A stretch of 64,000 nt of DNA, from positions 24,494-88,493 of IMG/VR virus record IMGVR_UViG_3300048694_001042; one strand, 5' to 3'. The position numbers were made by a program, and so were the translations under genes. The stretch is from a virus. The notes beneath the pieces are model-generated. The model worked only from the letters and a program-made list of their open reading frames with translations. It did no database searches and was not told the origin of the DNA. Shown piece by piece: positions 44,503 to 63,530 of this stretch (the stretch's first letter is position 1; each line of letters begins with the position of its first letter).

Positions 44503-44861
44503 AATGGTTTGCTGAAACAACTGAATGGTCGGATGCTACTATTCCCAACGGGGTGTATTTGTTGGACGACTCAAAGAGCAAGATGTATGCATTCCGTCCG
44601 TTTGGGGGCGCAGGCAAAGTCAAAGTGTTCAAGAATCCAATCAAACTTGACACCCGTGGCCGCAAGTTCAAGATCAATGATGTGCAATACAAGACGCAAG
44701 TGAATGAGGAAGTGCCAGAAGGCCGCGTGTGGACAGTGAAAGGATCAAAAGGCGATGAGTACCGAGTATCAGAACTCAATGGAGAATATTCATGCACCTG
44801 CTCAGGATTTAAGTTTCGAGCCAAATGTAAGCACACGGAAAGTATTCGTCAAACGGTTTGA
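44499..44861 (+). CDS. SWIM-type zinc finger protein
   Basis: 120 residues. First part is beta-rich (GVYLLDDSKSKMYAFRPFGG, KVKVFKNPIKLDTRGRKFKINDVQYKT). The C-terminus carries YSCTCSGFKFRAKCKHTESIRQ, the C-x-C-xn-C-x-H SWIM zinc pattern (about 97-115), found in DNA- or protein-binding proteins and common in phages. It is the last unrelated gene before the array; the first array gene overlaps its 3' end. Confidence 0.8.
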   Translation: MKWFAETTEWSDATIPNGVYLLDDSKSKMYAFRPFGGAGKVKVFKNPIKLDTRGRKFKINDVQYKTQVNEEVPEGRVWTVKGSKGDEYRVSELNGEYSCTCSGFKFRAKCKHTESIRQTV

Positions 44862-45033
44862 TGTAGATAGCGTGGGCATGTTTCGAGATGGCCGTTGGGC
44901 TGAAATGATTGACTGGTGCCAACACAATCTATACCATGGTGGCTACTATGAGCCTAACTGGTATGCTGACTACCCTACGTTCTACTTCTACGACGAGAAG
45001 GAATACACTGCATTTTTGTTGAGGTGGTCATAA
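44779..45033 (+). CDS. LRW-family paralogue 1
   Basis: Up to 84 residues; the start is uncertain (ATG at 44779 or 44755, GTG at 44872 or ATG at 44878) because the 5' half overlaps the SWIM gene. The family core is clear: MIDWCQHNLYHGGYYEPNW and FYFYDEKEYTAFLLRWS. YDEK-subgroup ending, as in the genes ending at 46177, 49165 and 51767. Confidence 0.65.
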   Translation: MENIHAPAQDLSFEPNVSTRKVFVKRFDVDSVGMFRDGRWAEMIDWCQHNLYHGGYYEPNWYADYPTFYFYDEKEYTAFLLRWS

Positions 45034-45293
45034 TGGAAGCATTGGAACGCTACGAAATCGAGCAACGTCGCCCACTGATGGACTGTGTCACGTATAGTGA
45101 CAAGTCGTGGACTACGGTGGAACTCCAGGACTGTCATTCTGGTGCATGGCAGTGGGGAGAAGGTGAGTATTACAACTGGTGTGATGCTAACTGTACCGAC
45201 AAATACAACATCGTAAAATACAAACATCAAACTATCGTTGGGCGTTTCAAGAGTGCCGCAGATGCTACTGCGTTTGTGTTGAGGTGGTCATGA
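45033..45293 (+). CDS. LRW-family paralogue 2
   Basis: 86 residues, MEALERYEIEQRRPLMDCVTY..., starts on the last base of the previous TAA. Core YYNWCDANCTDKYNIVKYKHQT, ending GRFKSAADATAFVLRWS. Has AADA in place of YDEK. Confidence 0.75.
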   Translation: MEALERYEIEQRRPLMDCVTYSDKSWTTVELQDCHSGAWQWGEGEYYNWCDANCTDKYNIVKYKHQTIVGRFKSAADATAFVLRWS

Positions 45294-45496
45294 TCAAAGA
45301 TATGGTACTTCACCATGATTGGACTGTGGTTGAGTTTGACGTGCCCAAATGGGTCATGGACAGAGTGGCCAAGGAACGCGAGATTCGCACTTGGTGCGAC
45401 ACACATTTCCCCCATGGTCGTTGGCAAGTGTTTTCCAATAGGGCGTATTTCCAAAAAGCCAGTGACGCTGTATTTTTCAAAATGGTGTGGTCGTGA
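45290..45496 (+). CDS. LRW-family paralogue 3
   Basis: 68 residues, MIKDMVLHHDWTVVEFDVPKWV..., core IRTWCDTHFPHGRWQVFSNR, ending YFQKASDAVFFKMVWS. LRW is degraded to KMVW (ATG-GTG-TGG), so the next gene lacks the GAGGTGG site and starts with GTG. Confidence 0.72.
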   Translation: MIKDMVLHHDWTVVEFDVPKWVMDRVAKEREIRTWCDTHFPHGRWQVFSNRAYFQKASDAVFFKMVWS

Positions 45497-45693
45497 AAAT
45501 AGAAAAGACTGGATACGCCGGGTGGAACAACTATCCTGTTTATCGTGTGAGAAGTTTTCAGGATTGGGAAGAACTCACTAGATGGATGCGAGCCAATGGT
45601 GTAGAACATTTCTTGTTGAGCAGTAGTAGTAGCATGGGATATACTTTTCAAGTAACACATAACCATGAGTGGTTTGCGTTGAGGTGGGCATGA
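45493..45693 (+). CDS. LRW-family paralogue 4 (WM subgroup)
   Basis: 66 residues, GTG start. GWNNYPVYRVRSFQDWEELTRWMRANGVEHFLLSSSSS, ending HNHEWFALRWA. Nearly the same protein recurs at 50530, and more distantly at 47046 and 45690: W-C is replaced by W-M/W-L followed by (K/A)-x-(N/S)-(V/I)-x-H. Confidence 0.78.
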   Translation: MKIEKTGYAGWNNYPVYRVRSFQDWEELTRWMRANGVEHFLLSSSSSMGYTFQVTHNHEWFALRWA

Positions 45694-45896
45694 AAATCAA
45701 AGTAAAAGATCTCTACTTCAAATTATCACAGCAATACCCCTACAATTACAGAGTGGAGGTCAGTGCCGATGCTCTTGCGGCTGACAAAGTAAGTGCGTGG
45801 TTGAAAGAAAATTCAATTCCGCATACACAAACCGGTTGGGGTGTGTATTATATGAACAAGCCCGGTGTTGAGTGGTTGTTGATGAGGTGGTCATGA
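45690..45896 (+). CDS. LRW-family paralogue 5 (WM subgroup)
   Basis: 68 residues, MKIKVKDLYFKLSQQYPYNYRVEV..., core VSAWLKENSIPHTQTGWGVYY, ending NKPGVEWLLMRWS. Related to the 45493 gene by W-L-K-E-N-x-x-x-H. Confidence 0.75.
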   Translation: MKIKVKDLYFKLSQQYPYNYRVEVSADALAADKVSAWLKENSIPHTQTGWGVYYMNKPGVEWLLMRWS

Positions 45897-46177
45897 GTCA
45901 CGGACCTTTGACGCCAGTGGAGAGAATTTTGGCAACTATTCGTCGCAAACATACCAAAGGTGAGTGGCGGTTTGATTACAATCCCGACAAAGAACGCTGG
46001 GAAACTTATCGCACGCCAATAGACTGGCCGTTTGGTTTGTATGGCTGGCTGTGGGAGCTTGGTAATCCACTCAGTGATCTAGCAGGCAATGAATCTAGTG
46101 GCTGGGACTATCATGGTGGCCATATTTACTTCTACGATGAGAAGTTGGTCACTGCGTTTATGTTGAGGTGGTCATGA
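45893..46177 (+). CDS. LRW-family paralogue 6
   Basis: 94 residues, MSHGPLTPVERILATIRRKHTKGEWRF..., a longer N-terminus and an FGLYGWLWELGNP helix in place of W-C; ending HIYFYDEKLVTAFMLRWS (YDEK subgroup). Confidence 0.75.
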   Translation: MSHGPLTPVERILATIRRKHTKGEWRFDYNPDKERWETYRTPIDWPFGLYGWLWELGNPLSDLAGNESSGWDYHGGHIYFYDEKLVTAFMLRWS

Positions 46178-46386
46178 AATTTACACCTGTTGACTTGCCA
46201 ATTCAGTATGGCAAAATAGAAGCAGTAAAATGGCTAAGAGAAACCATTGGTTATTCCAGGCTGGACGCGATGGCACGGTGGGACCAACTGATTTGGTATC
46301 ACGATTGGGTGTCCAGTAAAGAATGTTTTAGATTCTACTTTCGTAATCCCGAACACGCAACACTATTCGCATTGAGGTGGCTATAA
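46174..46386 (+). CDS. LRW-family paralogue 7
   Basis: 70 residues, MKFTPVDLPIQYGKIEAVKWLRE..., ending RFYFRNPEHATLFALRWL. The ending is very close to that of the outlier at 36120 (FYFKRPEDATWFQLKC), linking the arrays with it. Confidence 0.78.
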   Translation: MKFTPVDLPIQYGKIEAVKWLRETIGYSRLDAMARWDQLIWYHDWVSSKECFRFYFRNPEHATLFALRWL

Positions 46387-46637
46387 TGACTGAAGTGTAT
46401 CTTATAATCGACGGCCAAAAGGTTCGTGTGCCTACTCGCCCCTATGAGGCTTCGGACTTGGGTTGGCACAGAGGTGCAGATTATGGGTCTGCATTAAACT
46501 GGAAAGAACACGATTTTGTATCGATACGGGAGTGGTGTGAGGCAACATTTGATCCGCATGTTTACAAAATGTTTATGCGAAGCGTTTGGTTCTTATATGA
46601 GCACGATGCTGTGCTGTGTAGGTTGAAGTGGTCATGA
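46386..46637 (+). CDS. LRW-family paralogue 8
   Basis: 83 residues, MTEVYLIIDGQKVRVPTRPYE..., core SIREWCEATFDPHVYKMFMRS, ending YEHDAVLCRLKWS. Starts on the last base of the preceding TAA. Confidence 0.75.
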   Translation: MTEVYLIIDGQKVRVPTRPYEASDLGWHRGADYGSALNWKEHDFVSIREWCEATFDPHVYKMFMRSVWFLYEHDAVLCRLKWS

Positions 46638-46819
46638 CCAAAATACCTGTAAAATTCGATGACAGATTCAGCCGACACGAAGTATTTTACTGGGCCATTG
46701 CGGCGTTTGGCGCACCAGAAAGATGGCGCTCAAATGAGCGTTGGTCGTGGGACACCATCGATACTTTTTATTTCCGTGATCAAGAGGATGCTATTTACTT
46801 TGCATTGAGGTGGCGATGA
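46634..46819 (+). CDS. LRW-family paralogue 9
   Basis: 61 residues, MTKIPVKFDDRFSRHEVFYWAIAAFG..., one of the shortest, ending FYFRDQEDAIYFALRWR, a near-consensus C-terminus. Confidence 0.78.
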   Translation: MTKIPVKFDDRFSRHEVFYWAIAAFGAPERWRSNERWSWDTIDTFYFRDQEDAIYFALRWR

Positions 46820-47049
46820 ATTCAGCACAAAGACGTCGAGCACGACGTGAATTTCCGCATGTGGTGTTGTTGAACCCAGCAGAATCAGAACGGTACTTTC
46901 AGCATGACAACCGAGTAATCAAAGCCCGTGGGTGGTGTCGGCGTCAATTTGTCGAAGGTACCTGGACCAGCAAAGAACTTTGGGACCACGCAGAGTTTAA
47001 GTTTAGTAAACAAAAGGATGCAGTGTATTTTGCACTCAAATGGTCATGA
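46816..47049 (+). CDS. LRW-family paralogue 10 (MNSxQRR start)
   Basis: 77 residues. Basic N-terminus MNSAQRRRARREFPHVVLLNPAE shared with the gene at 62021 (MNSKQRRKDRRKW). Core VIKARGWCRRQFVEGTW, ending FKFSKQKDAVYFALKWS. Codons CTC-AAA-TGG keep the protein motif but lose the SD-like GAGG, showing selection on the protein. Confidence 0.78.
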   Translation: MNSAQRRRARREFPHVVLLNPAESERYFQHDNRVIKARGWCRRQFVEGTWTSKELWDHAEFKFSKQKDAVYFALKWS

Positions 47050-47237
47050 AGGTTTATCAAGTTGTGGGCTACCCACGCAATCATTATTTTGTTAAAACTT
47101 TTTCAGAGTTATTGGAAATTATGAGTTGGATGCAAAAGAACAATGTAGGTCATTTGCACGAATCCAGCGGCCTACACGGATATGGATTTAGCGTTCGTAA
47201 GAACATCGAGTGGTTTGCATTGAAGTGGTTGACATGA
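47046..47237 (+). CDS. LRW-family paralogue 11 (WM subgroup)
   Basis: 63 residues, MKVYQVVGYPRNHYFVKTF..., core LLEIMSWMQKNNVGHLHESSGLHGYGF, ending KNIEWFALKWLT. Related to 45493 and 50530. Confidence 0.75.
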   Translation: MKVYQVVGYPRNHYFVKTFSELLEIMSWMQKNNVGHLHESSGLHGYGFSVRKNIEWFALKWLT

Positions 47238-47506
47238 CGCACATCAAAACTTGGCGTTTAACTTGGAGTTACGATAGCTTGCCCGGTGCCCACGACATCG
47301 AGTACGCAGAAAGTCTTGGCTGCACGGTTGTGGTCCACGACAACATAAAGACGGCAGAAATTACAGGTCCAGATGGCAGAGCCTATTATTATGCCCGGCC
47401 CAGTTTCTACGGATTGGAATTTATTACTACAACCGATAGACAAGAAATGGCTTTGCTGTTAAAATATGGAGACTTACTAGAGCTTCGGCGCACCAAAGCA
47501 ATATGA
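47234..47506 (+). CDS. Divergent array gene
   Basis: 90 residues, MTHIKTWRLTWSYDSLPGAHDIE.... Lacks the LRW ending (TTTDRQEMALLLKYGDLLELRRTKAI); a residual D-R-Q-E-M-A-L-L-L-K may mark a decayed or extended family C-terminus. ATGA overlaps maintained. Confidence 0.6.
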   Translation: MTHIKTWRLTWSYDSLPGAHDIEYAESLGCTVVVHDNIKTAEITGPDGRAYYYARPSFYGLEFITTTDRQEMALLLKYGDLLELRRTKAI

Positions 47507-47787
47507 TGATGACTAATGTTCAGAATTGGATTCGTAGTAAGCGACCGCATGTTCGTGATATGGTCTATGGCGATAAACTTTTTTACTTTGCACCATACGA
47601 AGAGCCCGGTTGGCTTAGAGATGATGGGTACCGATGGTATCGCATAAGTTGCAGTTATTGGTTCGCGGACTGGATCGAAGCAAACGGAATCAAAAATGTG
47701 CAGTGGGAAGCTTACGGTGAACGGCATCGTGCCATTTACATGGTGCGTGATGACTTGTTTGCGTTTATAAAGTTGAAGTGGCTGTGA
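47503..47787 (+). CDS. LRW-family paralogue 12
   Basis: 94 residues, MMMTNVQNWIRSKRPHVRDMVYG..., core YWFADWIEANGIKNVQWEAYG, ending YMVRDDLFAFIKLKWL. The following gene starts 15 bp later, one of few gaps in the array. Confidence 0.72.
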   Translation: MMMTNVQNWIRSKRPHVRDMVYGDKLFYFAPYEEPGWLRDDGYRWYRISCSYWFADWIEANGIKNVQWEAYGERHRAIYMVRDDLFAFIKLKWL

Positions 47788-47802: not shown

Positions 47803-48018
47803 ATGAGTTATTTGAAGCATGAGGTGAAAATTCACAAAGACCAATATTGGGACGCCACTCACTGGTGTTTTGACCAGTTTGGTAGCAGATGGAGTCCGGT
47901 CAGCAACAGATCGGGTGCGTGGGCAGTATTTTGGTGTGGTACTGATCAGCGAAACCTATATAGGTTTTCTTTTGCTCAGGAGCAGGACATGGTTTGGTTT
48001 GCATTGAGGTTTGCATGA
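47803..48018 (+). CDS. LRW-family paralogue 13
   Basis: 71 residues, MSYLKHEVKIHKDQYWDATHWCFDQFGSRW, ending RFSFAQEQDMVWFALRFA (Trp replaced by Phe). Starts 15 bp after the previous stop; no clear SD. Confidence 0.75.
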   Translation: MSYLKHEVKIHKDQYWDATHWCFDQFGSRWSPVSNRSGAWAVFWCGTDQRNLYRFSFAQEQDMVWFALRFA

Positions 48019-48242
48019 AAGTCAATCTATTTAATCATTGGTTCAAATATAAAGTCCCTGTTGATACGCATATTGATAGGGTTAAGGATGCTGTATTAAA
48101 AGATAAACAACATTACTTGCGTTTTTGGGGCTGGCTCAATGATGTACATGATGTGGGGCAATACTACAAAGTCAGTGAAGGTCGCAACTACATGGTATTT
48201 CACAATCGAGCTCACTATATGATGTTTCTGTTAAAATTATGA
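48015..48242 (+). CDS. LRW-family paralogue 14
   Basis: 75 residues, MKVNLFNHWFKYKVPVDTHID..., core LRFWGWLNDVHDVGQYY, ending MVFHNRAHYMMFLLKL, lacking the final Trp. Codons at the end (TTA-AAA-TTA-TGA) give no SD. Confidence 0.7.
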   Translation: MKVNLFNHWFKYKVPVDTHIDRVKDAVLKDKQHYLRFWGWLNDVHDVGQYYKVSEGRNYMVFHNRAHYMMFLLKL

Positions 48243-48505
48243 TACTTCGAGACATAGACAAACTTTGGTATACCTTGCCGGACAAGATGGAGAACTTCAC
48301 CGGTCAGCGAGTAGACGACGATCCGGAGTGTCGCCGTTTTATTCGCAAAAACTTCAGTCATTGGCAATTCAGCGGTCTGGACAAGTTTGACGAAATTTTG
48401 ATTTGGTGCGAACAACACCTGGGCAATAATTTTATTTGGGACTGGGAAACCATTTATTTCAAGACTGAGCAAGACCGGGCGTTCTTTTTGTTGAGGTGGG
48501 CATGA
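48239..48505 (+). CDS. LRW-family paralogue 15
   Basis: 88 residues, MILRDIDKLWYTLPDKMENFTG..., core EILIWCEQHLGNNFIWDWETIYF, ending KTEQDRAFFLLRWA. Textbook order of W-C helix, Trp strand and LRW helix. Confidence 0.78.
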   Translation: MILRDIDKLWYTLPDKMENFTGQRVDDDPECRRFIRKNFSHWQFSGLDKFDEILIWCEQHLGNNFIWDWETIYFKTEQDRAFFLLRWA

Positions 48506-48708
48506 AATACTGGAACAAAGATAAAAACACTAGACAGAAACATTGGTTTCGTGTTGAGCTGCCCAACAAAGGGTGGAACTACGCTCAATCCAAGCGTGAG
48601 TTACAACTGCAAGACAGCCCGGGTAAGTTTTATCTCTACTACGGTAGCAATAGTATTTGGTTTGAGCGCGAGCAGGATGCTATGTGGTTTAGGTTGAAAT
48701 GTGTATGA
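48502..48708 (+). CDS. LRW-family paralogue 16
   Basis: 68 residues, MKYWNKDKNTRQKHWFRVELPN..., no W-C helix; ending SIWFEREQDAMWFRLKCV with Cys for Trp, as in the outlier at 36120 (LKCMG). Confidence 0.73.
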   Translation: MKYWNKDKNTRQKHWFRVELPNKGWNYAQSKRELQLQDSPGKFYLYYGSNSIWFEREQDAMWFRLKCV

Positions 48709-48935
48709 GAGTAGATATTGAACCGCAGTGGAAGCGACTGGCCAACTGGTATTGGGACAATGCTGGCGGCTACGAAGGTGTGGGCATGAGCATTTGGGCA
48801 ATGCTGGAGCGTGACTACGGTGCTATCAAAGTTTACCATGGTGTCCGCGGCGGCAAACTCGGAGCAAAGCACCAGTCCTTGGTGGAATTTCCTGACGAAA
48901 AAACTTATACAATGTTCTTATTGAGGTTTGGATGA
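48705..48935 (+). CDS. LRW-family paralogue 17
   Basis: 76 residues, MRVDIEPQWKRLANWYWDNAGGYEG, ISIWAMLERDYGAIKVYHG-type core, ending FPDEKTYTMFLLRFG. Confidence 0.73.
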   Translation: MRVDIEPQWKRLANWYWDNAGGYEGVGMSIWAMLERDYGAIKVYHGVRGGKLGAKHQSLVEFPDEKTYTMFLLRFG

Positions 48936-49165
48936 TTAGAATAAAGATATTTGAAGAAGATCGCCATCCATTAGAAATCCCACAATGGTGGTATAACTTT
49001 TGTCCAGATAGTTTCGGCGAAGAAGAACTCAATCATGCTCTCATGGACTGGTCAGCAAACTTTTGGATAGCAAAACCCATAAATCCGTTAAACGGTTACG
49101 GGGACAGATATCTTGATTTTTACGATGAAAAAGCGTATACTTGGTTTATGCTGAGGTGGACATAG
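48932..49165 (+). CDS. LRW-family paralogue 18
   Basis: 77 residues, MIRIKIFEEDRHPLEIPQWWYNF..., core HALMDWSANFWIAKPINP, ending DFYDEKAYTWFMLRWT (YDEK subgroup). Stop is TAG, giving a TAGTG overlap instead of ATGA. Confidence 0.75.
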   Translation: MIRIKIFEEDRHPLEIPQWWYNFCPDSFGEEELNHALMDWSANFWIAKPINPLNGYGDRYLDFYDEKAYTWFMLRWT

Positions 49166-49407
49166 TGTTTATCCATACATACGAGCTGATGAAAGATGCA
49201 GATGGTTCCGGTGGCGGACCATGGCACGTTGCGGCATTTACTGCTCCAAGAAGCTATCGTGAGATTGTTGAGTGGTGCTTAAAAACATTTGGACCAGCAG
49301 GCTACCATGATACACCGCAGGCCAGATGGAAAAATGATATTTTCTACGGTGAAGTATATTTTAGTCGTCAAGAAGACCTTGAGTGGTTTGTATTGAGGTG
49401 GTCATGA
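49165..49407 (+). CDS. LRW-family paralogue 19
   Basis: 80 residues, GTG start on the last base of the preceding TAG. VFIHTYELMKDADGSGGGPW..., core EIVEWCLKTFGPAGYHD, ending YFSRQEDLEWFVLRWS. Confidence 0.73.
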   Translation: MFIHTYELMKDADGSGGGPWHVAAFTAPRSYREIVEWCLKTFGPAGYHDTPQARWKNDIFYGEVYFSRQEDLEWFVLRWS

Positions 49408-49619
49408 AAACTATCCCACAGCATCCTTACCTACAAAATATTGTGGCAGAATACCGTCGTCAGCATGGAATGGGACCCACGCACTTATGGGATTCCAATC
49501 ACTATGTCAAATGGCTAAAACAATTTGGATTTCGAGTTCCCATGGACTTTCACAAAATAGAATTTCCTGACGATTTTTCTGACCAAGATTTGCTGTTGTT
49601 TGTATTGAGGTGGCGGTAA
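49404..49619 (+). CDS. LRW-family paralogue 20
   Basis: 71 residues, MKTIPQHPYLQNIVAEYRRQHG..., core HYVKWLKQFGFRVPMDFHKI, ending FSDQDLLLFVLRWR. Confidence 0.73.
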   Translation: MKTIPQHPYLQNIVAEYRRQHGMGPTHLWDSNHYVKWLKQFGFRVPMDFHKIEFPDDFSDQDLLLFVLRWR

Positions 49620-49822
49620 TGTACTATCTACCAATCAGCCCCTACCATAAACATTTATGTGACTATTGGGATGCTACTGGTCGTGGCCAAACACCTACTA
49701 GCAACTTTTGGGCTTGGGTCGAAAAAGAATACGGTGCTGAACTCACGCTATGGGAACGACCCGAGCGATGGCGATTTAAGGATGAACAAGATATGATTTG
49801 GTTTGCGTTGAGGTGGCGATGA
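49619..49822 (+). CDS. LRW-family paralogue 21
   Basis: 67 residues, MYYLPISPYHKHLCDYWDATGRGQ, core FWAWVEKEYGAELTLWERPERW, ending FKDEQDMIWFALRWR. Its N-terminus (PYHKHLCDYW) parallels the 48705 and 49404 genes (QWKRLANWYW, PYLQNIVAEY). Confidence 0.75.
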   Translation: MYYLPISPYHKHLCDYWDATGRGQTPTSNFWAWVEKEYGAELTLWERPERWRFKDEQDMIWFALRWR

Positions 49823-50109
49823 AAATAAACTTCAAGAGTGTAGATGATGTAGCACATGATGTGTTGGTTGACCATTTTCGTGGCTTGCTAGAAATCGTGC
49901 CGGCATACGTTCCTGACGGGTTTGTCAATGAAGGGCGAAAACCGCCTGAAGGTTATGAGAGCTATGTTTGCGTGGATGTGTTAGGTGAAGAACTGTTGTG
50001 GATGAACGAACAGTTCCCCCAAGAACAATACACTTGGTATATTTGGTTTGAGTCAATATTTTTAGTTACTCCGGAAATGGCTTCGTACTTGAAGTTGAAG
50101 TGGTCATGA
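49819..50109 (+). CDS. LRW-family paralogue 22
   Basis: 96 residues, MKINFKSVDDVAHDVLVDHFRG..., longer N-terminus; core LLWMNEQFPQEQYTWYIWFES, ending LVTPEMASYLKLKWS. Confidence 0.73.
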   Translation: MKINFKSVDDVAHDVLVDHFRGLLEIVPAYVPDGFVNEGRKPPEGYESYVCVDVLGEELLWMNEQFPQEQYTWYIWFESIFLVTPEMASYLKLKWS

Positions 50110-50351
50110 AACCCTGCGAACTACAAACCATGCTGGCACGAGCCATACGTGATTCGGTACAGGACAAGCCATGGACTCCTCCTCCAGAAGCACGAGTTAT
50201 TACAGGCAATCCCAAACATGACGCACAACTGCACCATGTGCTGGTTGAATATGGCATAGAGGTAGAGTTGGGAAAATACCATGACCTTGTGGATTACCGT
50301 GTTGTCGATGAACAAAAGTTCATGATGTTTTTGTTGAAGTGGGCACGATGA
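50106..50351 (+). CDS. LRW-family paralogue 23
   Basis: 81 residues, MKPCELQTMLARAIRDSVQDK..., mid-region HDAQLHHVLVEYGIEVELGKY, ending VVDEQKFMMFLLKWAR. Confidence 0.72.
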   Translation: MKPCELQTMLARAIRDSVQDKPWTPPPEARVITGNPKHDAQLHHVLVEYGIEVELGKYHDLVDYRVVDEQKFMMFLLKWAR

Positions 50352-50533
50352 CCAAATTTCGAATCGATCATCGATACAACCATATTGGCGTCAACGTCTT
50401 TCTCTGTGCCAACGAGTTTGACCAAATATACAATTGGTGCTATAATAAACCCGAAGCATACGATTGTTATTCCACTGGATTCGTATATCGAACCAAAAAT
50501 GATTTAACAATGTTTTTGTTGAGGTGGTCATGA
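50348..50533 (+). CDS. LRW-family paralogue 24
   Basis: 61 residues, MTKFRIDHRYNHIGVNVFLCAN, core FDQIYNWCYNKPEAYDCYSTG, ending YRTKNDLTMFLLRWS. Minimal version of the domain. Confidence 0.75.
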   Translation: MTKFRIDHRYNHIGVNVFLCANEFDQIYNWCYNKPEAYDCYSTGFVYRTKNDLTMFLLRWS

Positions 50534-50730
50534 AAGTAGTAGAAAGCTCAAGTTATTCTGGATGGAACGACTATCCTGTTTATAGAGTCAGATCGTTTCA
50601 AGATTGGCTTGACCTTATTGGGTGGATGAAAGAAAACCACGTAGAACATTTTTTACTGTCATCGGGTTATGGTGGATATGTATTTCAAGTTAAAACTAAT
50701 GCCGAATGGTTTGCACTGAGGTGGTCATGA
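50530..50730 (+). CDS. LRW-family paralogue 25 (close copy of 45493 gene)
   Basis: 66 residues, MKVVESSSYSGWNDYPVYRVRSF then QDWLDLIGWMKENHVEHFLLSSGYGGYVFQVKTNAEWFALRWS. Shares YPVYRVRSFQDW and VEHFLLSS with the 45493 gene about 5 kb away, the clearest recent duplication in the array. Confidence 0.8.
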   Translation: MKVVESSSYSGWNDYPVYRVRSFQDWLDLIGWMKENHVEHFLLSSGYGGYVFQVKTNAEWFALRWS

Positions 50731-51002
50731 AAGTGCATGAAATGCAAGACGGGCAAGTGTTTGGACATCGCTATACTGTGATTCCCTGTGAGTTTTTTGA
50801 CTACGATCGTCAAGCCGATTCGGATGAACTCTGGCGTAGTGAAGAACTCAAAGCCCTGAATCTATGGTGTTGGGAAGCGTTTGGCGAACAAGGTGAACCC
50901 TATGACTATATGGGTGCGCCTCACCGTTGGTATCAGCAAAAAGGACAGTTTTGGTTTCGTGATGCGGCAGATGTCGCTTGGTTTAAGTTGAAATGGGCAT
51001 GA
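50727..51002 (+). CDS. LRW-family paralogue 26
   Basis: 91 residues, MKVHEMQDGQVFGHRYTVIPCEFF..., core ALNLWCWEAFGEQGEPYDYM, ending FWFRDAADVAWFKLKWA. Confidence 0.75.
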   Translation: MKVHEMQDGQVFGHRYTVIPCEFFDYDRQADSDELWRSEELKALNLWCWEAFGEQGEPYDYMGAPHRWYQQKGQFWFRDAADVAWFKLKWA

Positions 51003-51340
51003 ACTACAATCCTACTACAGCAGCCAGTGTAGCTGCCAATGGACAAAAGATATTACTTCCTATGATTAGGAAGGTTATGCCTACCATTATGGCACAGCAG
51101 ATTGTGGGGGTGCAACCTATGACAAATAATCTAGGTATCTTTAATCGGTTACTCTACAAAAATTTCAATAAGAAATATTGGCCCTATCAATATTTTATCG
51201 ATGATAAAACATATCGAATTAGCGATGTTGAGCGTTGGTGTTGGGATCAGTTCAAAGGTCGCTACTGGAACAATTACGGCAGGAACTTTGTATTCAAGCG
51301 TGAGAAGGATGCTGTGATGTTTGCCTTGAGGTGGCTATGA
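50999..51340 (+). CDS. LRW-family paralogue 27 with capsid (gp23)-like N-terminus
   Basis: 113 residues, longest of the first array. Residues about 8-45 (ASVAANGQKILLPMIRKVMP, TIMAQQIVGVQPMTNNLG) resemble the T4-family major capsid protein segment M-V-R-R-x-x-P-x-L-I-A-x-x-I-x-G-V-Q-P-x-x-x-P-T-G. The C-terminal half is a normal family domain: ISDVERWCWDQFKGRYWNNYG, ending FVFKREKDAVMFALRWL. It looks like a fusion of a gp23 fragment to the LRW domain; decoy, assembly interference or mere recombination scar are open. Confidence 0.78.
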   Translation: MNYNPTTAASVAANGQKILLPMIRKVMPTIMAQQIVGVQPMTNNLGIFNRLLYKNFNKKYWPYQYFIDDKTYRISDVERWCWDQFKGRYWNNYGRNFVFKREKDAVMFALRWL

Positions 51341-51597: not shown

Positions 51598-51767
51598 GTT
51601 ATTTGTATACTACACCGGATGATGTTAAACCTGAATTTGGCGCGTGGACTAATCGCAAAGAATGGTGTGAAAAGAATTGCCAAGGAGCATGGAAATACAT
51701 GCTCCAAGGTAAGTTTGTTTTCTATGACGAAAAAGATTATGTGTTGTTCATGTTGAGGTGGTCATGA
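51594..51767 (+). CDS. LRW-family paralogue 29 (shortest)
   Basis: 57 residues, MSYLYTTPDDVKPEFGAWTN, core RKEWCEKNCQGAWKYMLQGK, ending FVFYDEKDYVLFMLRWS. Complete minimal domain; ATGA overlap at both ends. Confidence 0.78.
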   Translation: MSYLYTTPDDVKPEFGAWTNRKEWCEKNCQGAWKYMLQGKFVFYDEKDYVLFMLRWS

Positions 51768-58060: not shown

Positions 58061-58304
58061 ATCAGTATTTGGCAACATGGCATATGACTTGGTCACTGAC
58101 CATGCAGGACAAATTGTTGAGTCAATAGAGGAAAATCAGTACAATCAGTGGCAACGTGAATTTGTGTGGGATGCTTTGCAAAATCAAAGGTTCGGTCAAA
58201 GTTTTTGCAAAGCATTTGACATAAAGGACGCTATCCTGTATTATGAACGTGACTGGGTGCGAGCCGATGCTTACATTAGAAGAAACTATATTGCACGACC
58301 GTGA
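58053..58304 (+). CDS. Divergent small gene at start of second array
   Basis: 83 residues, TTG start preceded by AGGAG (an internal ATG at 58077 is an alternative). MAYDLVTDHAGQIVESIEEN..., FVWDALQNQRFGQSFCKAFDIKDAILYYERDW. A Trp/Cys-containing helix resembles the family core, but no LRW; C-terminal YIRRNYIARP is different. Overlaps the next gene by 38 nt. Confidence 0.6.
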   Translation: MGESVFGNMAYDLVTDHAGQIVESIEENQYNQWQREFVWDALQNQRFGQSFCKAFDIKDAILYYERDWVRADAYIRRNYIARP

Positions 58305-58521
58305 ATCGTGGTCCACAATTGTGTTGCTCGGCTGTTTGCCAATGGATGCTGTGGTAAAAAAACATGATTTGATATCAGACGGCTTGGTACTAGATGAAGA
58401 TTTTTGTTGGGGCTATCGTTCATCAGAGTATGACGGTTTTACGATGAATCGTGATCGTCATGCTGTGTTTGCGTTTAGAGATCCTGTGGTGGCTGGATTT
58501 TATAGATTAAAATGGTTATGA
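58267..58521 (+). CDS. LRW-family paralogue, second array
   Basis: 84 residues, MLTLEETILHDRESWSTIVLLGC..., ending VFAFRDPVVAGFYRLKWL. An earlier in-frame ATG at 58243 is possible. Codons TTA-AAA-TGG-TTA-TGA give no strong SD. Confidence 0.7.
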   Translation: MLTLEETILHDRESWSTIVLLGCLPMDAVVKKHDLISDGLVLDEDFCWGYRSSEYDGFTMNRDRHAVFAFRDPVVAGFYRLKWL

Positions 58522-58874
58522 TCGAACGCTTTGTATTGAACGACTTGCCTGATGGCTGGTCAGTGTCGTGGCCTGGCTTTGAGTGGGTAGTATGCGACAA
58601 CGAGCTCAAGGCCACTAACTTGCTAAAGATCTTGTTTGATGAAGTCAACGTGGATGAAGCTATTGTGGCGGTAAAATACAGTGACAAAGATTTTATAGTA
58701 AACATTCCTTGGTACACTTATCATCAGAATCCCGACGCTTCGGGCAGATTTTTAGTACGCAACCATGTAGTAACAGGTGTGAAATTTGTTACACTAGAGC
58801 AAGCACAAAAGTTCAAAGGCATCATGGACAAGCGACTGGCTTGGCGCCAACTGAGTGGCAGGAACTGGCAGTGA
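58518..58874 (+). CDS. Divergent array gene, C-terminus altered
   Basis: 118 residues, MIERFVLNDLPDGWSVSWPGFEWV.... Helix ATNLLKILFDEVNVDEAIVAV and an ending VTLEQAQKFKGIMDKRLAWRQLSGRNWQ: E-x-A-x-x-F with the LRW shifted and an extension. Probably a diverged family member. Confidence 0.6.
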   Translation: MIERFVLNDLPDGWSVSWPGFEWVVCDNELKATNLLKILFDEVNVDEAIVAVKYSDKDFIVNIPWYTYHQNPDASGRFLVRNHVVTGVKFVTLEQAQKFKGIMDKRLAWRQLSGRNWQ

Positions 58875-59083
58875 TTAAAATTACTCTCAAAACGCAACTA
58901 ACAGGTCATCAACAACAATGGCTGACGCAAAACGTTGGACCCAGAATGTTTTATTTGCACAATCAAATAGGCGGAACTGGTTGGGTGGCCAAGCAAGAAA
59001 CTGTGCTGGGGAGTTACCGACAGTGGACACTGACGTTCGAAGATGATCGACTGGCAACTGCGTTTTTGCTAAAATGGAAATAA
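58871..59083 (+). CDS. LRW-family paralogue, second array
   Basis: 70 residues, GTG start by GTGA overlap. VIKITLKTQLTGHQQQWLTQNVGPRMFYLHNQIGG..., ending LTFEDDRLATAFLLKWK. Core helix is HQQQWLTQNVG. Confidence 0.7.
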   Translation: MIKITLKTQLTGHQQQWLTQNVGPRMFYLHNQIGGTGWVAKQETVLGSYRQWTLTFEDDRLATAFLLKWK

Positions 59084-59292
59084 CACAGCGAATCTATGAT
59101 GGATGCGATTGCTATCCCTGGCGCAAAACCTTTGTGATTTGGCCTAGACGTAGCATAACTGGGCAACGTGTTTGGATGACCGTTGCCTACAAACGACGAT
59201 ATTGGGCGGTGTGGGGCACCGGATTCCATATGGAACCTGAGGTAGAGTATGCTACAATATTTGAAATACTAGCAGATAATCATGGACGTTGA
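59074..59292 (+). CDS. Small protein, unrelated to array
   Basis: 72 residues, MEITQRIYDGCDCYPWRKTFVIW..., overlapping the previous gene by 10 nt. Beta-rich, Trp/Arg-rich (RRSITGQRVWMTVAYKRRYWAVWGTGF). A common small T4-like phage pattern of unknown function. Confidence 0.6.
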   Translation: MEITQRIYDGCDCYPWRKTFVIWPRRSITGQRVWMTVAYKRRYWAVWGTGFHMEPEVEYATIFEILADNHGR

Positions 59293-59488
59293 AGCAGAAA
59301 ATACATTCAGAATCCTAAAGAATGAGCCGCCGTTGACTACCAGTTGGTTGTGTAGATTTGGTTGGCATCGCTGGACACAATGGTCAGAAGTGTACTTGCC
59401 TAAGAATGGACAAAACAATATTCAGCACAGTCACTGTGATCACTGCAACCGAATGCGAGTACATAAAGTAACAGGACCCGGAATATGA
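59282..59488 (+). CDS. Zinc-ribbon-like small protein
   Basis: 68 residues. WLCRFGWHRWTQWSEVYL and HSHCDHCNRMRVHKV give a C-x(n)-H...H-x-x-C-x-x-C pattern of short phage zinc ribbons. Unknown partner. Overlaps neighbours by 11 and 4 nt. Confidence 0.65.
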   Translation: MDVEAENTFRILKNEPPLTTSWLCRFGWHRWTQWSEVYLPKNGQNNIQHSHCDHCNRMRVHKVTGPGI

Positions 59489-59706
59489 TACTAAAAGCAG
59501 AGCAAATCGAAAAGTGGTTGTATTATGAAACTGGGTTTGAACAACTGCATCCGCGCCCGCCTATTCTTAAGTGGATGGCAGAGCAAGGTTACAAGTATAA
59601 TCAAGATTGGCGTTGCACTCGAATGGTTACGCCCACGGGGCTGATCTATGGCTTGATGTTTCCCAGTGAGGAAGTAAAAATTATGTTTATGTTGAGGTGG
59701 TCATGA
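59485..59706 (+). CDS. LRW-family paralogue, second array
   Basis: 73 residues, MILKAEQIEKWLYYETGFEQL..., core PPILKWMAEQGYKYNQDWRC (W-M type), ending FPSEEVKIMFMLRWS followed by a GAGGTGG-coupled start. Confidence 0.75.
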   Translation: MILKAEQIEKWLYYETGFEQLHPRPPILKWMAEQGYKYNQDWRCTRMVTPTGLIYGLMFPSEEVKIMFMLRWS

Positions 59707-60050
59707 AACCTTGTGTTTGGTATGATACAGATGAAAAGTTGCCGCCTACCAAAGGCTACTACCTTGCGTTCAAAGGCATGAGCATGGGAGACGACGAAAC
59801 TGAGACAGCCTATTACTACTGGGACCCAAAGTATGCAGAGTGGCGAGACTACGAAAGCCGAAGCATTGGCGGCTATGCTAACGTGGTGTACTGGACTGAC
59901 GCCGACCCTGCTACCTGGTACGAAAATTACAGTATGCCACCACGAAGCAAAACCAAACGCAAAGTATCAGAGGCAGAAATAGATGCTTGGCGTGCTGTAG
60001 AACAAGCAATTGAACGATATGAAGTTGTAAGGGCATTAGCAAAGAAATGA
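59703..60050 (+). CDS. DUF551-like small protein within array
   Basis: 115 residues. LPPTKGYYLAFKGMSMGDDE..., YYYWDPKYAEWRDYESRSIGG, ANVVYWTDADPATWYE follows the short DUF551-type pattern seen in phage proteins, plus a basic C-terminal helix. Not an LRW member, but inserted in ATGA register. Confidence 0.6.
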   Translation: MKPCVWYDTDEKLPPTKGYYLAFKGMSMGDDETETAYYYWDPKYAEWRDYESRSIGGYANVVYWTDADPATWYENYSMPPRSKTKRKVSEAEIDAWRAVEQAIERYEVVRALAKK

Positions 60051-60523
60051 ACTACTCAATAATGACAGACTCAGAGCTGCTACACTATCTAGACTTGTAT
60101 TCCAACGATCCACTGATTCGCAGGCTGGTTGACTTGATGCAAAACACTCGTGGCGAGGTTATCCGAGACTTAGTTGACGCAGGTATGGATTCAAAGACTT
60201 GGACATTTAGCACCGACTATGAAACAATGTATCCAGGTGAGTACATTGAATCACTGCGTAGTGAGCTTCGATGCAACGAACAAGACATGGATGACATGCG
60301 ATATGAATTGGAAAAAGCCTCCGATGAACGGGACGAATTAAAAACTCGCAACATCATGCAGTTCATCGAAGAAGTTCAGCAAGAAAAGCGAGCTGCTGCT
60401 GCCAAAGCCCAAGCGGCATACGCAGACGTTGCTAGCATTCGTGAGGAATCAAGCAAAGTAAAAAAAGAAAACGAAAAACTGCGAGAGCAAATCAACATGT
60501 GGGGGCGAATGAACACAGTATGA
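60047..60523 (+). CDS. Coiled-coil protein within array
   Basis: 158 residues, MNYSIMTDSELLHYLDLYSND..., then a long coiled coil (about 70-155, Glu/Lys/Arg/Gln heptads). Phage proteins of this type with an N-terminal DSELLHYxxLY helix are frequent; unknown function. Not an LRW member. Confidence 0.65.
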   Translation: MNYSIMTDSELLHYLDLYSNDPLIRRLVDLMQNTRGEVIRDLVDAGMDSKTWTFSTDYETMYPGEYIESLRSELRCNEQDMDDMRYELEKASDERDELKTRNIMQFIEEVQQEKRAAAAKAQAAYADVASIREESSKVKKENEKLREQINMWGRMNTV

Positions 60524-60738
60524 TTACCTACGTACAACCATGGGAAGAACTGCCCAGTTTGAGAGTACCACGCCTGCACCGAGTAAACTACAATCCCAAA
60601 TACAACTGGGGCGAAGTGCAATACTGGTGCAAGGAAAATTGTCGTGCTCCTTCCTACATGGGCGGTAGTTGGTCTGGAAACTTTGCGGAGTTTGAAGATG
60701 ATCAAGACGCTGTGCTGTTTGCATTGAAATGGGCATGA
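60520..60738 (+). CDS. LRW-family paralogue (KVPxLHR subgroup)
   Basis: 72 residues, MITYVQPWEELPSLRVPRLHRVNYNPKYN..., core VQYWCKENCRAPSYMGGSW, ending FEDDQDAVLFALKWA. Matches the gene at 51337 across arrays. Confidence 0.78.
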   Translation: MITYVQPWEELPSLRVPRLHRVNYNPKYNWGEVQYWCKENCRAPSYMGGSWSGNFAEFEDDQDAVLFALKWA

Positions 60739-60959
60739 TCACCGCCAGTGTTAGATTAAAAGAGCCAGAAAATCAGTATAAGTTTATTGATGAGGGCCCT
60801 ATTAACGTCTGGTTGCTGGCCAATGTTGGTGTTCATGCAAGATTCAAAGATCTAGTGGATGAGGATCGTCCTTGGCATGTTGAACATAATTTTCGAGAAC
60901 TTGTGTATCATTTTGCTCGCGAGCAGGATGCCACTGCATTTGCATTGAGATGGTCATGA
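60735..60959 (+). CDS. LRW-family paralogue, second array
   Basis: 74 residues, MITASVRLKEPENQYKFIDEG, core INVWLLANVGVHARFKDLVD, ending HFAREQDATAFALRWS. Confidence 0.75.
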   Translation: MITASVRLKEPENQYKFIDEGPINVWLLANVGVHARFKDLVDEDRPWHVEHNFRELVYHFAREQDATAFALRWS

Positions 60960-61183
60960 ATAATAGAACATTACCCGGAACTTCGGAATCACTACACAAT
61001 GCTGGAGTTTGGTTGCGAGAGTATCTTAATGTACCTCCCCGGCATACAATTTTTGACCAGTTTGAAGAATACTTCAACTGTCAACTGGTTGTGGAGCACA
61101 GAGAAGATCCGTGGTACTGTCCGGACCGGGCTGTGTTCAACACCGAACAAGATTTAACAGCATTTTTATTGAGGTGGGCATGA
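60956..61183 (+). CDS. LRW-family paralogue, second array
   Basis: 75 residues, MNNRTLPGTSESLHNAGVWLRE..., core FEEYFNCQLVVEHREDPWY, ending FNTEQDLTAFLLRWA. Confidence 0.75.
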   Translation: MNNRTLPGTSESLHNAGVWLREYLNVPPRHTIFDQFEEYFNCQLVVEHREDPWYCPDRAVFNTEQDLTAFLLRWA

Positions 61184-61401
61184 TGTTTGATCACCCTGCA
61201 GTCATAAAACTGCAAACAACCAACATCTGGGACATTGAATCTCGGGTAAGCGAAATACATGAAATACGACGTTGGTTGGATGAACTAACACTGTGGCAAG
61301 ATGATATGTATCGTATGGAAACAATCACACCAAAGAACTCATTAAGGGTTTGGTTCAAGGATCCCCAGCATGCAGTGTTTTGCAAGCTGAGGTGGCCTTG
61401 A
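61180..61401 (+). CDS. LRW-family paralogue, second array
   Basis: 73 residues, MMFDHPAVIKLQTTNIWDIES..., core IRRWLDELTLWQDDMYRME, ending WFKDPQHAVFCKLRWP. Longer frame upstream overlaps the previous gene. Confidence 0.75.
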   Translation: MMFDHPAVIKLQTTNIWDIESRVSEIHEIRRWLDELTLWQDDMYRMETITPKNSLRVWFKDPQHAVFCKLRWP

Positions 61402-61790
61402 TGTTTGGATTTAATCCAGCACCCGGCACGCCAGGTGGAAGACCTTGGTCAAAGGAACGTATGGCAAAGTGGGAAATAGATTTTAGATTTGGTCCGATTA
61501 GGGGATTGTGGTGGCGGTTCATGCCCGGTGTGCAAATTGAAGTGCCCTGGCCCACGGGCTGGACCGAACCCGAACCCGCGCCCGGTGGCGGATTTATACA
61601 GTTTGAGTCTGCGGACCCAAACGATCACTATCGTCCATGGCTTGAAAAGAACGTGGGCCGCCAAGGTTGGGATTGGGAATGGCGAATTGGGAAGGTGGCT
61701 GCTCAAACCAACGTACAAGATACTTTGGTAATCAAGTTTCGTCGAGGTCGAGAAAAGTATGCTACAATAGCAGCATTGAGGTGGGCGTGA
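61401..61790 (+). CDS. LRW-family paralogue with long Pro/Gly/Trp N-terminus
   Basis: 129 residues, the longest member. N-terminal half is Pro/Gly/Trp-rich (MFGFNPAPGTPGGRPWSKER, WTEPEPAPGGGFIQFES), then HYRPWLEKNVGRQGWDWEWR and ending RRGREKYATIAALRWA. A possible second fusion-type member, though I recognise no donor. Confidence 0.7.
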   Translation: MFGFNPAPGTPGGRPWSKERMAKWEIDFRFGPIRGLWWRFMPGVQIEVPWPTGWTEPEPAPGGGFIQFESADPNDHYRPWLEKNVGRQGWDWEWRIGKVAAQTNVQDTLVIKFRRGREKYATIAALRWA

Positions 61791-62024
61791 GTGAAATACT
61801 TTTGGACCGATGGTGGCAATAATAGGCCTTATTTTAGATACAGAATCAAAGTGCCTAGATGTACCGCAGAAATGTATCGCTGGTGTGAACAGTATGACGA
61901 TGAAGGTGAGTACTTCAGACGATTTCATGTTGAGTGGAAATCAATACACATTGATAAAGAATATGAAATTGTGCAATTTGAATGGGAGCAGGCTGCTATC
62001 ATGTTTGCCTTGAGGTGGTTATGA
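61791..62024 (+). CDS. LRW-family paralogue, second array
   Basis: 77 residues, GTG start directly after the previous stop. MKYFWTDGGNNRPYFRYRIK..., core EMYRWCEQYDDEGEYFRR, ending FEWEQAAIMFALRWL. Confidence 0.75.
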   Translation: MKYFWTDGGNNRPYFRYRIKVPRCTAEMYRWCEQYDDEGEYFRRFHVEWKSIHIDKEYEIVQFEWEQAAIMFALRWL

Positions 62025-62251
62025 ATTCAAAACAACGCAGAAAAGATCGAAGAAAATGGCGGTACAGTGTTAGACTGACCACATCGGATGTAATGATCAA
62101 AGAATATAACCAAATATGGGATTGGTGCCGAAACACATATGGCAACGGACGCAGGTGTGCTGGATGGAGAGAAAAATTTGGACACTTTGGAACTTGCTGG
62201 CAGTTTACCAGCGACAAGAAAGCTGCTCTGTTTGCGCTGAGGTGGTGCTGA
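62021..62251 (+). CDS. LRW-family paralogue (MNSxQRR start)
   Basis: 76 residues, MNSKQRRKDRRKWRYSVRLTT..., core QIWDWCRNTYGNGRRCAGW, ending FTSDKKAALFALRWC. Pairs with the gene at 46816 in the first array by its N-terminus. Confidence 0.77.
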   Translation: MNSKQRRKDRRKWRYSVRLTTSDVMIKEYNQIWDWCRNTYGNGRRCAGWREKFGHFGTCWQFTSDKKAALFALRWC

Positions 62252-62496
62252 TGCCTGATCGGTTTCGTGTTAAACTTCCTGGCCTGTCTTGGCAACAACC
62301 GTGGCCCAAGTATTTTGATAACTTTTGGAAACACTGCGACGATGTTGCCAGAAAGAATCAGTGGTTCACCATCACCGTTGCCAATACTGAACTCAAGCCC
62401 ATGGGTGGCCGATTGATTCAAACCAAAACACAGGGCTGGTACCTACGTTGGGATAGTGAAGCCAGTCATACAGCATTTGTGTTAAAGTGGGCTTGA
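62251..62496 (+). CDS. LRW-family paralogue, second array
   Basis: 81 residues, MPDRFRVKLPGLSWQQPWPKY..., core FWKHCDDVARKNQWFTITV, ending WDSEASHTAFVLKWA. Confidence 0.74.
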   Translation: MPDRFRVKLPGLSWQQPWPKYFDNFWKHCDDVARKNQWFTITVANTELKPMGGRLIQTKTQGWYLRWDSEASHTAFVLKWA

Positions 62497-62738
62497 TGTC
62501 TAGGTCATTGAGTAAACCTTATGTTGCTACCAATCCGCGTTCAGTGCGCGGGGCAAAGAAACGTGGCTGGCACGTAGTCAAACCAAACCCCAACTATGTG
62601 GAGAGAGCAAGTTGGGTGGGACTGAACATTTGGTGTGAGCGTATGGCAGGGGGATATTGGGTAGCCAGTTTCCACCACCGTGAGTTTGCATTTGAATCCG
62701 GTGCTGATGCCATGATGTTCAAATTAAAGTGGGGATAA
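62496..62738 (+). CDS. LRW-family paralogue, second array
   Basis: 80 residues, basic N-terminus MSRSLSKPYVATNPRSVRGAKKRGW, core GLNIWCERMAGGYWVASFHH, ending FESGADAMMFKLKWG. ATG shares a base with the upstream TGA. Confidence 0.75.
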   Translation: MSRSLSKPYVATNPRSVRGAKKRGWHVVKPNPNYVERASWVGLNIWCERMAGGYWVASFHHREFAFESGADAMMFKLKWG

Positions 62739-62748
62739 AAATCACTCA

Positions 62749-63039
62749 ATGATCCTGACCAGAAGTGAATTCAAACAATACTGGGACAACCTCGATCCAA
62801 GACTAACAGTGGATGATGGGCCGCTGTGGATACCCGACGAAGATACGCCCTCCAAATGGTTTGTGTGCGTCAAGCCCGTTGGCGTTCACAAGTTCAAGTG
62901 GAACTATTATGACTGGTGCAACCAAGCACTGAAAGGTCGAGTTCGTTGCTACAGTAGCAGCATCGACAATGAACAAGAGTGGTGGGGGTTTACTGAACAA
63001 CAGGACATAGCCTTTTGGCTATTGAAGTGGGCACAATGA
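62749..63039 (+). CDS. LRW-family paralogue, second array
   Basis: 96 residues, MILTRSEFKQYWDNLDPRLTV..., core YYDWCNQALKGRVRCYSSS, ending FTEQQDIAFWLLKWAQ. Starts 10 nt after the previous stop. Confidence 0.74.
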   Translation: MILTRSEFKQYWDNLDPRLTVDDGPLWIPDEDTPSKWFVCVKPVGVHKFKWNYYDWCNQALKGRVRCYSSSIDNEQEWWGFTEQQDIAFWLLKWAQ

Positions 63040-63278
63040 CTGACATAATGGAAGACTTTCGGCGCGGTAGATTCATAGTTGCGCCCAGCTACATCAGCCG
63101 TGGACTGTCCAATCCTCGTTATGGGCACATGATTGTGCTCACCGACATAGGTTTTTGGGCAGACAACATAGATGCGCTGGTACAGTGGTGCCAGGATCAC
63201 GGCTGTGAAACTCGAGGCATGACAGTGGACATACCTGATGATCACACCCTAACTCTTTTTTGCCTGCGGTGGAAATAG
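63036..63278 (+). CDS. LRW-family paralogue, second array
   Basis: 80 residues, MTDIMEDFRRGRFIVAPSYIS..., core ALVQWCQDHGCETRGMTVD, ending IPDDHTLTLFCLRWK. Confidence 0.74.
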   Translation: MTDIMEDFRRGRFIVAPSYISRGLSNPRYGHMIVLTDIGFWADNIDALVQWCQDHGCETRGMTVDIPDDHTLTLFCLRWK

Positions 63279-63293
63279 TCATACATAGTACTA

Positions 63294-63530
63294 ATGCAAA
63301 TCGCCAGCTCAGCAAAACAATTACGCGAAGAGAGCAGTTTCGCTTACTCCAAAGAGATAGCCAAACCTTTTGGCCAATTGGACGGCATTTTGGATTGGTG
63401 CCGTTCAGAACTCAATGGGGAATGGCGTTGGAAATTGATAACTGTAAGTTCGGACATAAGCCCGGGCCGATATCTTTTTTTCTTTGATTCTGAACGCGAT
63501 GCTTGTGCATTTACCATGCAGTGGGCTTGA
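63294..63530 (+). CDS. LRW-family paralogue, last of second array
   Basis: 78 residues, MQIASSAKQLREESSFAYSKEI..., core GILDWCRSELNGEWRWKLITV, ending FFFDSERDACAFTMQWA; LRW is degraded to MQW at the array end, where no coupled gene follows. Lies 15 nt after the preceding stop. Confidence 0.72.
   Translation: MQIASSAKQLREESSFAYSKEIAKPFGQLDGILDWCRSELNGEWRWKLITVSSDISPGRYLFFFDSERDACAFTMQWA

Follow-up and report, generated by a model that had tools for sequence, protein, structure and literature searches.

T4-type phages are described as exchanging early-region genes as modules by way of short conserved intergenic elements, the promoter–terminator cassettes called PeSLs, as far as this shuffling is outlined in PMC4503421, which cites Arbiol 2010 and Comeau 2014. 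Adjacent genes can also be coupled translationally through an ATGA stop/start overlap, with the Shine–Dalgarno sequence lying in the upstream gene (PMC6728339, PMC12548453). Here we describe an array of small genes that resembles both arrangements, in a 64,000-nucleotide stretch of viral DNA (hereafter the window; bases 24,494–88,493 of the 88.5-kb virus record IMGVR_UViG_3300048694_001042). From the listing of open reading frames (ORFs) and an analysis of starts and stops, the array consists of 46 plus-strand genes for proteins of 57–129 amino acids in two tandem runs, with 31 genes in run 1 (44755/44779–52245), where start and stop overlap in nearly all, and 15 in run 2 (58243–63530). An earlier note on this stretch had counted about 46 paralogues of this size in two runs, and the count holds. 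We refer to the family by its C-terminal Leu-Arg-Trp (LRW) ending. Unlike the PeSLs, the repeated element of the array lies in coding sequence, in the codons of each gene's own C-terminus, and is a ribosome-binding site rather than a promoter or stem-loop; moreover, all cassettes come from a single protein family. Unlike the described cases of ATGA coupling, the array is a long chain of overlaps (36 start/stop overlaps among the window's members), with the Shine–Dalgarno sequence written into a conserved protein motif.

The commonest gene end, TTG AGG TGG TCA TGA, reads as L-R-W-S-stop in the protein. As RNA, the same junction contains GAGGUG, which base-pairs with the 16S rRNA 3′ terminus, and the next gene starts at the ATG within ATGA; an example with GAGGTG and the overlapping ATG is found at 45276–45293 on the plus strand. 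The LRW codons double as the Shine–Dalgarno sequence of the next gene, and codon choice carries this conclusion. The codon tests cover 747 distinct members from the window and from 119 viral loci. Because the relatives were sampled through a DNA pattern of the junction, which favours arrays having that junction, members matching the search pattern were left out; the window and the cultured Sinorhizobium phage Phosso are unaffected by this bias. At overlapping junctions the Arg codon is AGG in 306 of 382 cases (80%), compared with 13 of 40 (33%) at non-overlapping ones (Fisher p = 1e-9), 4 of 24 at other start offsets and 292 of 4,244 (7%) among Arg codons elsewhere in the same genes. The third base of the Leu codon is G in 358 of 435 overlapping and 30 of 68 non-overlapping junctions (p = 1e-10). 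Trp is retained at overlapping and non-overlapping ends alike (425 of 454 and 71 of 74, respectively), and the Arg residue itself is present in 79% of members that serve an overlap and in 40% of those that do not. Thus, since Trp is kept in all groups and the Arg codon varies with the overlap, L-x-W is a feature of the protein, and the Arg codon serves the RNA. The median duplex energies with the anti-Shine–Dalgarno sequence are −10.3 kcal/mol for overlapping junctions, −4.4 for non-overlapping ones and −2.9 for random sites in the same genes. With stop/start overlaps and an in-gene Shine–Dalgarno sequence at the proper spacing, the array has the arrangement of a coupled operon. In the window taken alone, AGG occupies 25 of 26 overlapping junctions; in Phosso, where the family is dispersed, it occupies only 3 of 11.

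The ends of the runs follow the same logic. The last member of run 1 (52024–52245, plus strand) ends in ALKRS (CTA AAG CGA TCA TAA) and, with no downstream gene to serve, has lost both the motif and the Shine–Dalgarno sequence; an intrinsic terminator with a 9-bp stem and a T-run follows immediately (52246–52267, plus strand). The member at 63036–63278 (plus strand) stands before a gene that does not overlap it (start at 63294) and keeps LRW, with the Arg encoded by CGG (CTGCGGTGG) and no Shine–Dalgarno sequence, and is a natural control. The last member of run 2 (63294–63530, plus strand) ends in TMQWA (ATGCAGTGG), with the W kept and the R lost. The earlier note had treated the LRW end as a feature of the protein only; the Arg and Leu codon choice and the non-overlap controls rule this out. 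The converse, an RNA-only signal without a protein family, is ruled out by the Trp that is kept without an overlapping successor and by homology that survives loss of the last residues. In a leave-one-out profile analysis, 40 of the 46 members score above all 920 shuffled sequences and 43 exceed the 99% level. When the last 6 residues are cut off, 29 of 46 remain over the 99% level, and the homology therefore extends beyond LRW, although LRW supplies much of the signal. Six members, starting at 45690, 47503, 49404, 52024, 58243 and 62251, are weak when scored singly.

Structure predictions, run with AlphaFold2 on family alignments only, give a confident fold. The member starting at 60520, modelled with 115 family sequences, reaches a predicted local distance difference test score (pLDDT) of 89, with predicted strands at residues 15–17 and 20–24, a helix at 30–40, strands at 45–50 and 53–58 and a helix at 61–71. 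The β-α-β-β-α fold is common to both members modelled, the second being a chimera at 50999–51340 whose domain scores about 95. Together, profiles and models show that all members are built on one predicted β-α-β-β-α domain (the LRW domain), to which each adds its own N-terminal part, in line with the shared fold that the earlier note had presumed. The domain has no match in profile searches of Pfam, PHROGs, NCBIfam, PADLOC or PDB families, and Foldseek against the PDB finds no solved homologue (best E = 0.18). Among 115 members, the PADLOC defence and anti-defence models give just one match, at chance level. Our literature searches, which left most subscription papers uncovered, found no published account of such arrays.

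Most paralogue pairs within the window are less than 45% identical, and the three pairs that the earlier note had singled out, 45493/50530, 51337/60520 and 46816/62021, are 66%, 44% and 31% identical, respectively. Divergence between phages tells a different story from the one first proposed. Window members have full-length orthologues in other contigs, with identities up to 95%, and dN/dS (the ratio of nonsynonymous to synonymous substitution rates) is 0.23 over 200 orthologue pairs, with 0.25 in the N-terminal and 0.21 in the C-terminal halves; among 164 pairs with usable dS, one exceeds 1. Thus, the N-terminal parts, which had been said to vary almost freely, are each conserved between orthologues, and positive selection on them is ruled out; the array is old and diverged, as claimed, while the claim that it is diversifying fails in so far as it meant positive selection. 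The set of genes varies instead. Whole contigs contain 44 (this one), 39, 24, 23, 22, 17, 15, 14, 14 and 8 members by profile, on relatives' contigs that are incomplete, and in 135 orthologue pairs both genes have an LRW gene next downstream; this neighbour is shared in 22 of the pairs and differs in the other 113 (84%). Array length and order are not fixed among relatives, as the earlier note had expected. Low dN/dS together with changed neighbours means that these are genuine, translated genes, each conserved on its own, and that the set carried and its order vary. Related phages share a pool of cassettes that differ in number and order from phage to phage, each cassette being under purifying selection.

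The junction pattern was found at these viral loci, at least 119 in all, in uncultivated phages, and the family profile finds members in all of those listed. Among the cultured phages searched, the profile finds 28 members in Phosso and 5 in Agrobacterium phage Atu_ph07, and none in T4, XaC1 or RHph_Y68, which fits poorly with the suggestion that single proteins of this type are scattered in T4-like phages. A search of 84,980 bacterial and archaeal genomes gave 8 pattern matches, and family members in only one, a 6.4-kb phage-like contig of a metagenome-assembled genome; occurrence in prophages was dismissed on this basis. The junction consensus is absent from the plasmids searched, and the record has no DNA-level match among 50,697 known phages. 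It has 53 ORFs in common with the 338-kb contig G013, in collinear stretches. Since G013 carries capsid, portal and terminase genes of T4 type, a jumbo phage of the T4 superfamily is the most likely source of the window, as judged from these gene contents.

The N-terminal part with the clearest source is that of the chimera at 50999–51340 (plus strand). Its residues 1–55 match a segment of the major capsid protein gp23 (T4 residues ~79–122, in the Gol region; PF07068, 5.8e-9) and are followed by the LRW domain. Against a gp23 profile the match is 8e-13, with a best shuffled control of E = 1.3. The protein has 113 amino acids and only a ~45-residue gp23 segment, and is not a full HK97-type major capsid protein; the gp23 tail is predicted to be disordered (pLDDT ~55) on the well-folded domain. 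A Gol-region piece is also found in arrays L017/G008, L119, L013/G006, L090, L091/L029, L080, G019 and G017, and further in L276–L285 and G031, more than a dozen relatives in all. The LRW backbones that carry it are of three or more kinds and also occur with other N-termini; in G031, a 364-kb contig, it sits on two different backbones, beside the phage's own full-length gp23. The core common to the modules aligns with T4 gp23 residues 93–118, in the region of the Gol peptide (residues 94–122). Positions P104, I107, I111, V114, Q115 and M117 agree with the capsid residues in 9 of 9 aligned modules, with P104, V114, Q115 and M117 retained in essentially all. All 10 full-length capsid proteins read have the Arg pair R100–R101, and no module keeps it intact: the second Arg is replaced in 9 of 9 and in those read later, the first in Phosso. 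Many modules end near T4 residue 118, and conservation in the capsid continues to about 131. Over 30 codons compared between L091 and L029, the Gol piece has a proportion of nonsynonymous differences (pN) of 0 and of synonymous differences (pS) of 0.30, and further pairs give a summed pN/pS of 0.20. These alignments and codon comparisons show that some N-terminal parts are segments captured from core phage proteins, most often the gp23 Gol segment, and are kept by purifying selection.

Two other parts of gp23 are found repeatedly: the helix EI..EID.EI occurs in G017, L090, Phosso and G036, the strand FY.PY.PL in G018 and Phosso. The genome of Phosso, which is cultured and complete and encodes its own gp23, has all three pieces as separate genes. 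In G036 the Gol and helix pieces are adjacent and on a different small carrier (EEEADEI..RL). At L297 (contig IMGVR_UViG_3300049491_000195, 5000–7500), two adjoining small genes likewise combine this carrier with Gol and helix pieces and have no LRW domain. G017 and G019, array-bearing contigs of 240 and 264 kb, have gp23 pieces, yet gp23 itself, a T4 portal and Terminase_6C were undetected in these possibly incomplete sequences; they may be either fragments of very large genomes or genomes with another capsid type. The possibility that the modules are aimed only at foreign phages, their carriers lacking gp23, fails as a general account, since Phosso and G031 encode their own.

Sources other than gp23 are marginal and not established by these sequence comparisons. 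Searching the N-termini against the proteomes of their own phages (six contigs) and 344 conserved families (ten contigs) gave strong matches to gp23 alone; portal, sheath and other core families are absent from the matches to the 344 families, and the idea that N-termini are fragments of many own-phage proteins is unsupported. Walker A stretches of DnaB and TerL match marginally (E = 0.0018–0.006), and an NrdA motif, 'SNLCKEI.LP', is a motif match only and suggestive. NrdA active-site-like N-termini were seen at L116:2604-3110, L056:7079-7570, L068:2979-3401 and L042:538-861, the window's NrdA having SNLCCEILLPTKP; some of them also carry a Walker A stretch (GGIHPSEMMIFSGGRQTGKS). N-termini resembling the Q-motif and Walker A of TerL (YPWQERLVDA...ARQLGKS) were seen at L052:412-861, L057:3163-3648 and L060:3828-4259, with E = 0.005 at best.

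The 29-residue Gol stretch of T4 gp23 binds domains II/III of EF-Tu and triggers cleavage of EF-Tu by Lit; it is the most conserved part of gp23 and has been suggested to be important for gp23 translation or folding (PMC3014915). Here, in contrast, a putative Gol tail stands on a separate small protein, with no capsid attached and with Arg100–Arg101 always broken. Capsid proteins are common defence triggers, as in CapRel SJ46 (PMC9712102), and by analogy a capsid protein is the kind of trigger for which a phage might make a decoy. We propose, judging the chances to be about even, that the array is an early polycistronic stack of interchangeable cassettes that forms a host-takeover or counter-defence repertoire, part of it capsid-peptide bait. 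Each cassette's final codons (L-R-W-x-stop) supply the Shine–Dalgarno sequence and overlapping start for the next gene; because the Shine–Dalgarno sequence lies within the cassette end, a cassette inserted behind another brings its successor's ribosome signal, and ribosomes can proceed from one gene to the next. Recombination at the ~20-nt repeated junction would shuffle the cassettes, and promoter look-alikes at 44026 and 55344 suggest early expression. The LRW-domain surface, the tail or both may let each protein bind its own partner, from the host or from a phage-defence system. Members bearing Gol would act as bait for the partners of gp23, occupying EF-Tu or a Lit-like capsid sensor without triggering it, and would do so before the real capsid protein is made. 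The bait reading accounts for the retention of a peptide known to engage EF-Tu and a suicide protease as a free tail in which one residue pair is consistently altered, and for the varying number of such proteins among phages. 'Variable binders', as the earlier note had put it, remains our best functional guess, with the captured gp23 segments as a concrete clue.

Several points weigh against this proposal. The break in the Arg pair may simply reflect a role of that residue in capsid assembly rather than in Lit activation. A recognizable N-terminal module is present in a minority of members, most having little beyond the LRW domain, and no member resembles known anti-defence or host-takeover proteins. 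Early timing is read from promoter look-alikes alone, of which 43 were seen and 30 ± 6 expected. Finally, Lit is known from E. coli, and the hosts of these phages may have no such system.

The same observations could be read in other ways. The gp23 pieces (the Gol region, the EI..EID.EI helix and the FY.PY.PL strand), possibly with pieces of TerL, DnaB and NrdA, might bind the full-length counterparts of a co-infecting phage and poison its assembly, as a repertoire for competition between phages. That the recognizable modules derive from oligomeric core phage proteins and that three gp23 regions recur across different phage groups would suit such weapons, which we nevertheless consider unlikely, since carriers such as Phosso and G031 make gp23 of the same type and would be their own targets unless shielded by timing or divergence, and since the non-gp23 sources are weak (E = 0.002–0.005). 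Neutral capture would instead make the N-termini random phage-gene fragments placed before LRW domains by recombination. Only fragments with conserved motifs would then be recognizable, so that gp23, TerL, DnaB and NrdA would stand out without meaning; most modules indeed have no recognizable source, and the weak non-gp23 matches all fall at highly conserved catalytic motifs. We doubt this explanation as well, given the codon-level constraint on the Gol piece between L091 and L029 and in the summed pairs, its presence on three or more LRW backbones as well as on non-LRW carriers, the many modules that stop near T4 residue 118 despite capsid conservation to about 131, and the absence of portal, sheath or other core families among the 344 that were scanned.

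It seems rather improbable that the array tunes the phage's own programme, with the Gol tail binding EF-Tu to aid translation or capsid folding and the LRW proteins serving as assembly or translation adaptors rather than in counter-defence. The affinity of Gol for EF-Tu domains II/III, its conservation (PMC3014915) and the purifying selection on the module agree with such a role; unlike a core function, the presence, number and backbone of these proteins vary among related phages, and the Arg pair is changed in all modules. Selfish expansion, in which the junction with its Shine–Dalgarno sequence and ATGA eases duplication and exchange and array growth is mainly a product of that ease, would explain the ~20-nt junction repeats, the shuffled order and the very variable length. 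With purifying selection on each gene, and within-window paralogues too divergent for recent runaway duplication, we regard it as very improbable. Returning to the repertoire and bait proposal, a wider version, which we put forward tentatively and with considerable doubt, is that T4-superfamily jumbo phages maintain a shuffling library of small early proteins in which core-protein segments on a shared scaffold act as self-mimic decoys, saturating host sensors before the real proteins are made, while the ribosome-binding site in the scaffold's last codons keeps the library expressible. The segments would include the capsid Gol segment and capsid helix and, possibly, terminase, helicase and ribonucleotide reductase motifs. 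If this is true, phages counter capsid-sensing suicide systems with a library of decoys of themselves, and the array yields dozens of candidate binders for host or defence targets. Whatever the function, one sequence is both protein motif and ribosome-binding site and makes the gene family plug-and-play. The proposal is testable in a cultured phage, Phosso on Sinorhizobium meliloti, with its 28 members and three gp23 pieces, and the Gol/Lit/EF-Tu assay is long established in laboratory E. coli K-12.

The members of run 1, all on the plus strand, lie at 44755/44779–45033, 45033–45293, 45290–45496, 45493–45693, 45690–45896, 45893–46177, 46174–46386, 46386–46637, 46634–46819, 46816–47049, 47046–47237, 47503–47787, 47803–48018, 48015–48242, 48239–48505, 48502–48708, 48705–48935, 48932–49165, 49165–49407, 49404–49619, 49619–49822, 49819–50109, 50106–50351, 50348–50533, 50530–50730, 50727–51002, 50999–51340, 51337–51597, 51594–51767, 51764–52027 and 52024–52245. 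Those of run 2, on the same strand, lie at 58243–58521, 58871–59083, 59485–59706, 60520–60738, 60735–60959, 60956–61183, 61180–61401, 61401–61790, 61791–62024, 62021–62251, 62251–62496, 62496–62738, 62749–63039, 63036–63278 and 63294–63530. The first member could start at 44755, 44779 or 44878; the ambiguity arises from an ORF at 44500–44861, with a SWIM-like zinc motif (CTCSGFKFRAKCKH), whose 3′ end overlaps this first array gene. Within the runs, six ORFs have no clear membership (47234–47506, 58518–58874, 59074–59292, 59282–59488, 59703–60050 and 60047–60523); that at 47234–47506 (plus strand), inside run 1 and outside the profile, has an extended C-terminus (DRQEMALLLKY) and is a possible degenerate member. 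A lone outlying member with an LKC ending lies outside the array at 36120–36446 on the plus strand. Upstream of run 1, a sigma70-like promoter, GTTGACC-N17-TATAAT with a TG extension (44026–44055, plus strand), is nearly identical to a sequence at 55344–55373; both are 30 nt long and strong (GTTGACCAATAT...TGCTATAAT) and probably represent an early-promoter family of this phage. The promoter and the operon setting agree with the promoted, early-type region of the earlier note.

Other genes in the window are also unusual. An ORF at 9613–10821 reads like isocitrate lyase, an unusual metabolic gene for a phage, and has a 96% identical counterpart in G013. The gene run at 29969–38331, with signal peptides, extreme low complexity (NTNTSTNTN repeats) and ORFs of lipoprotein-like and membrane type, resembles a module of exported surface proteins, which would be unusual in a phage. 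A sizeable proteostasis set at 20576–24727 and 38383–41159 comprises ORFs that read as ClpX, DnaK, a small heat-shock protein and two ClpP-like proteins. Just past run 2, at 63575–63999, minus-strand ORFs rich in Gly, Val and Ala may be the end of a repeat-rich structural gene.

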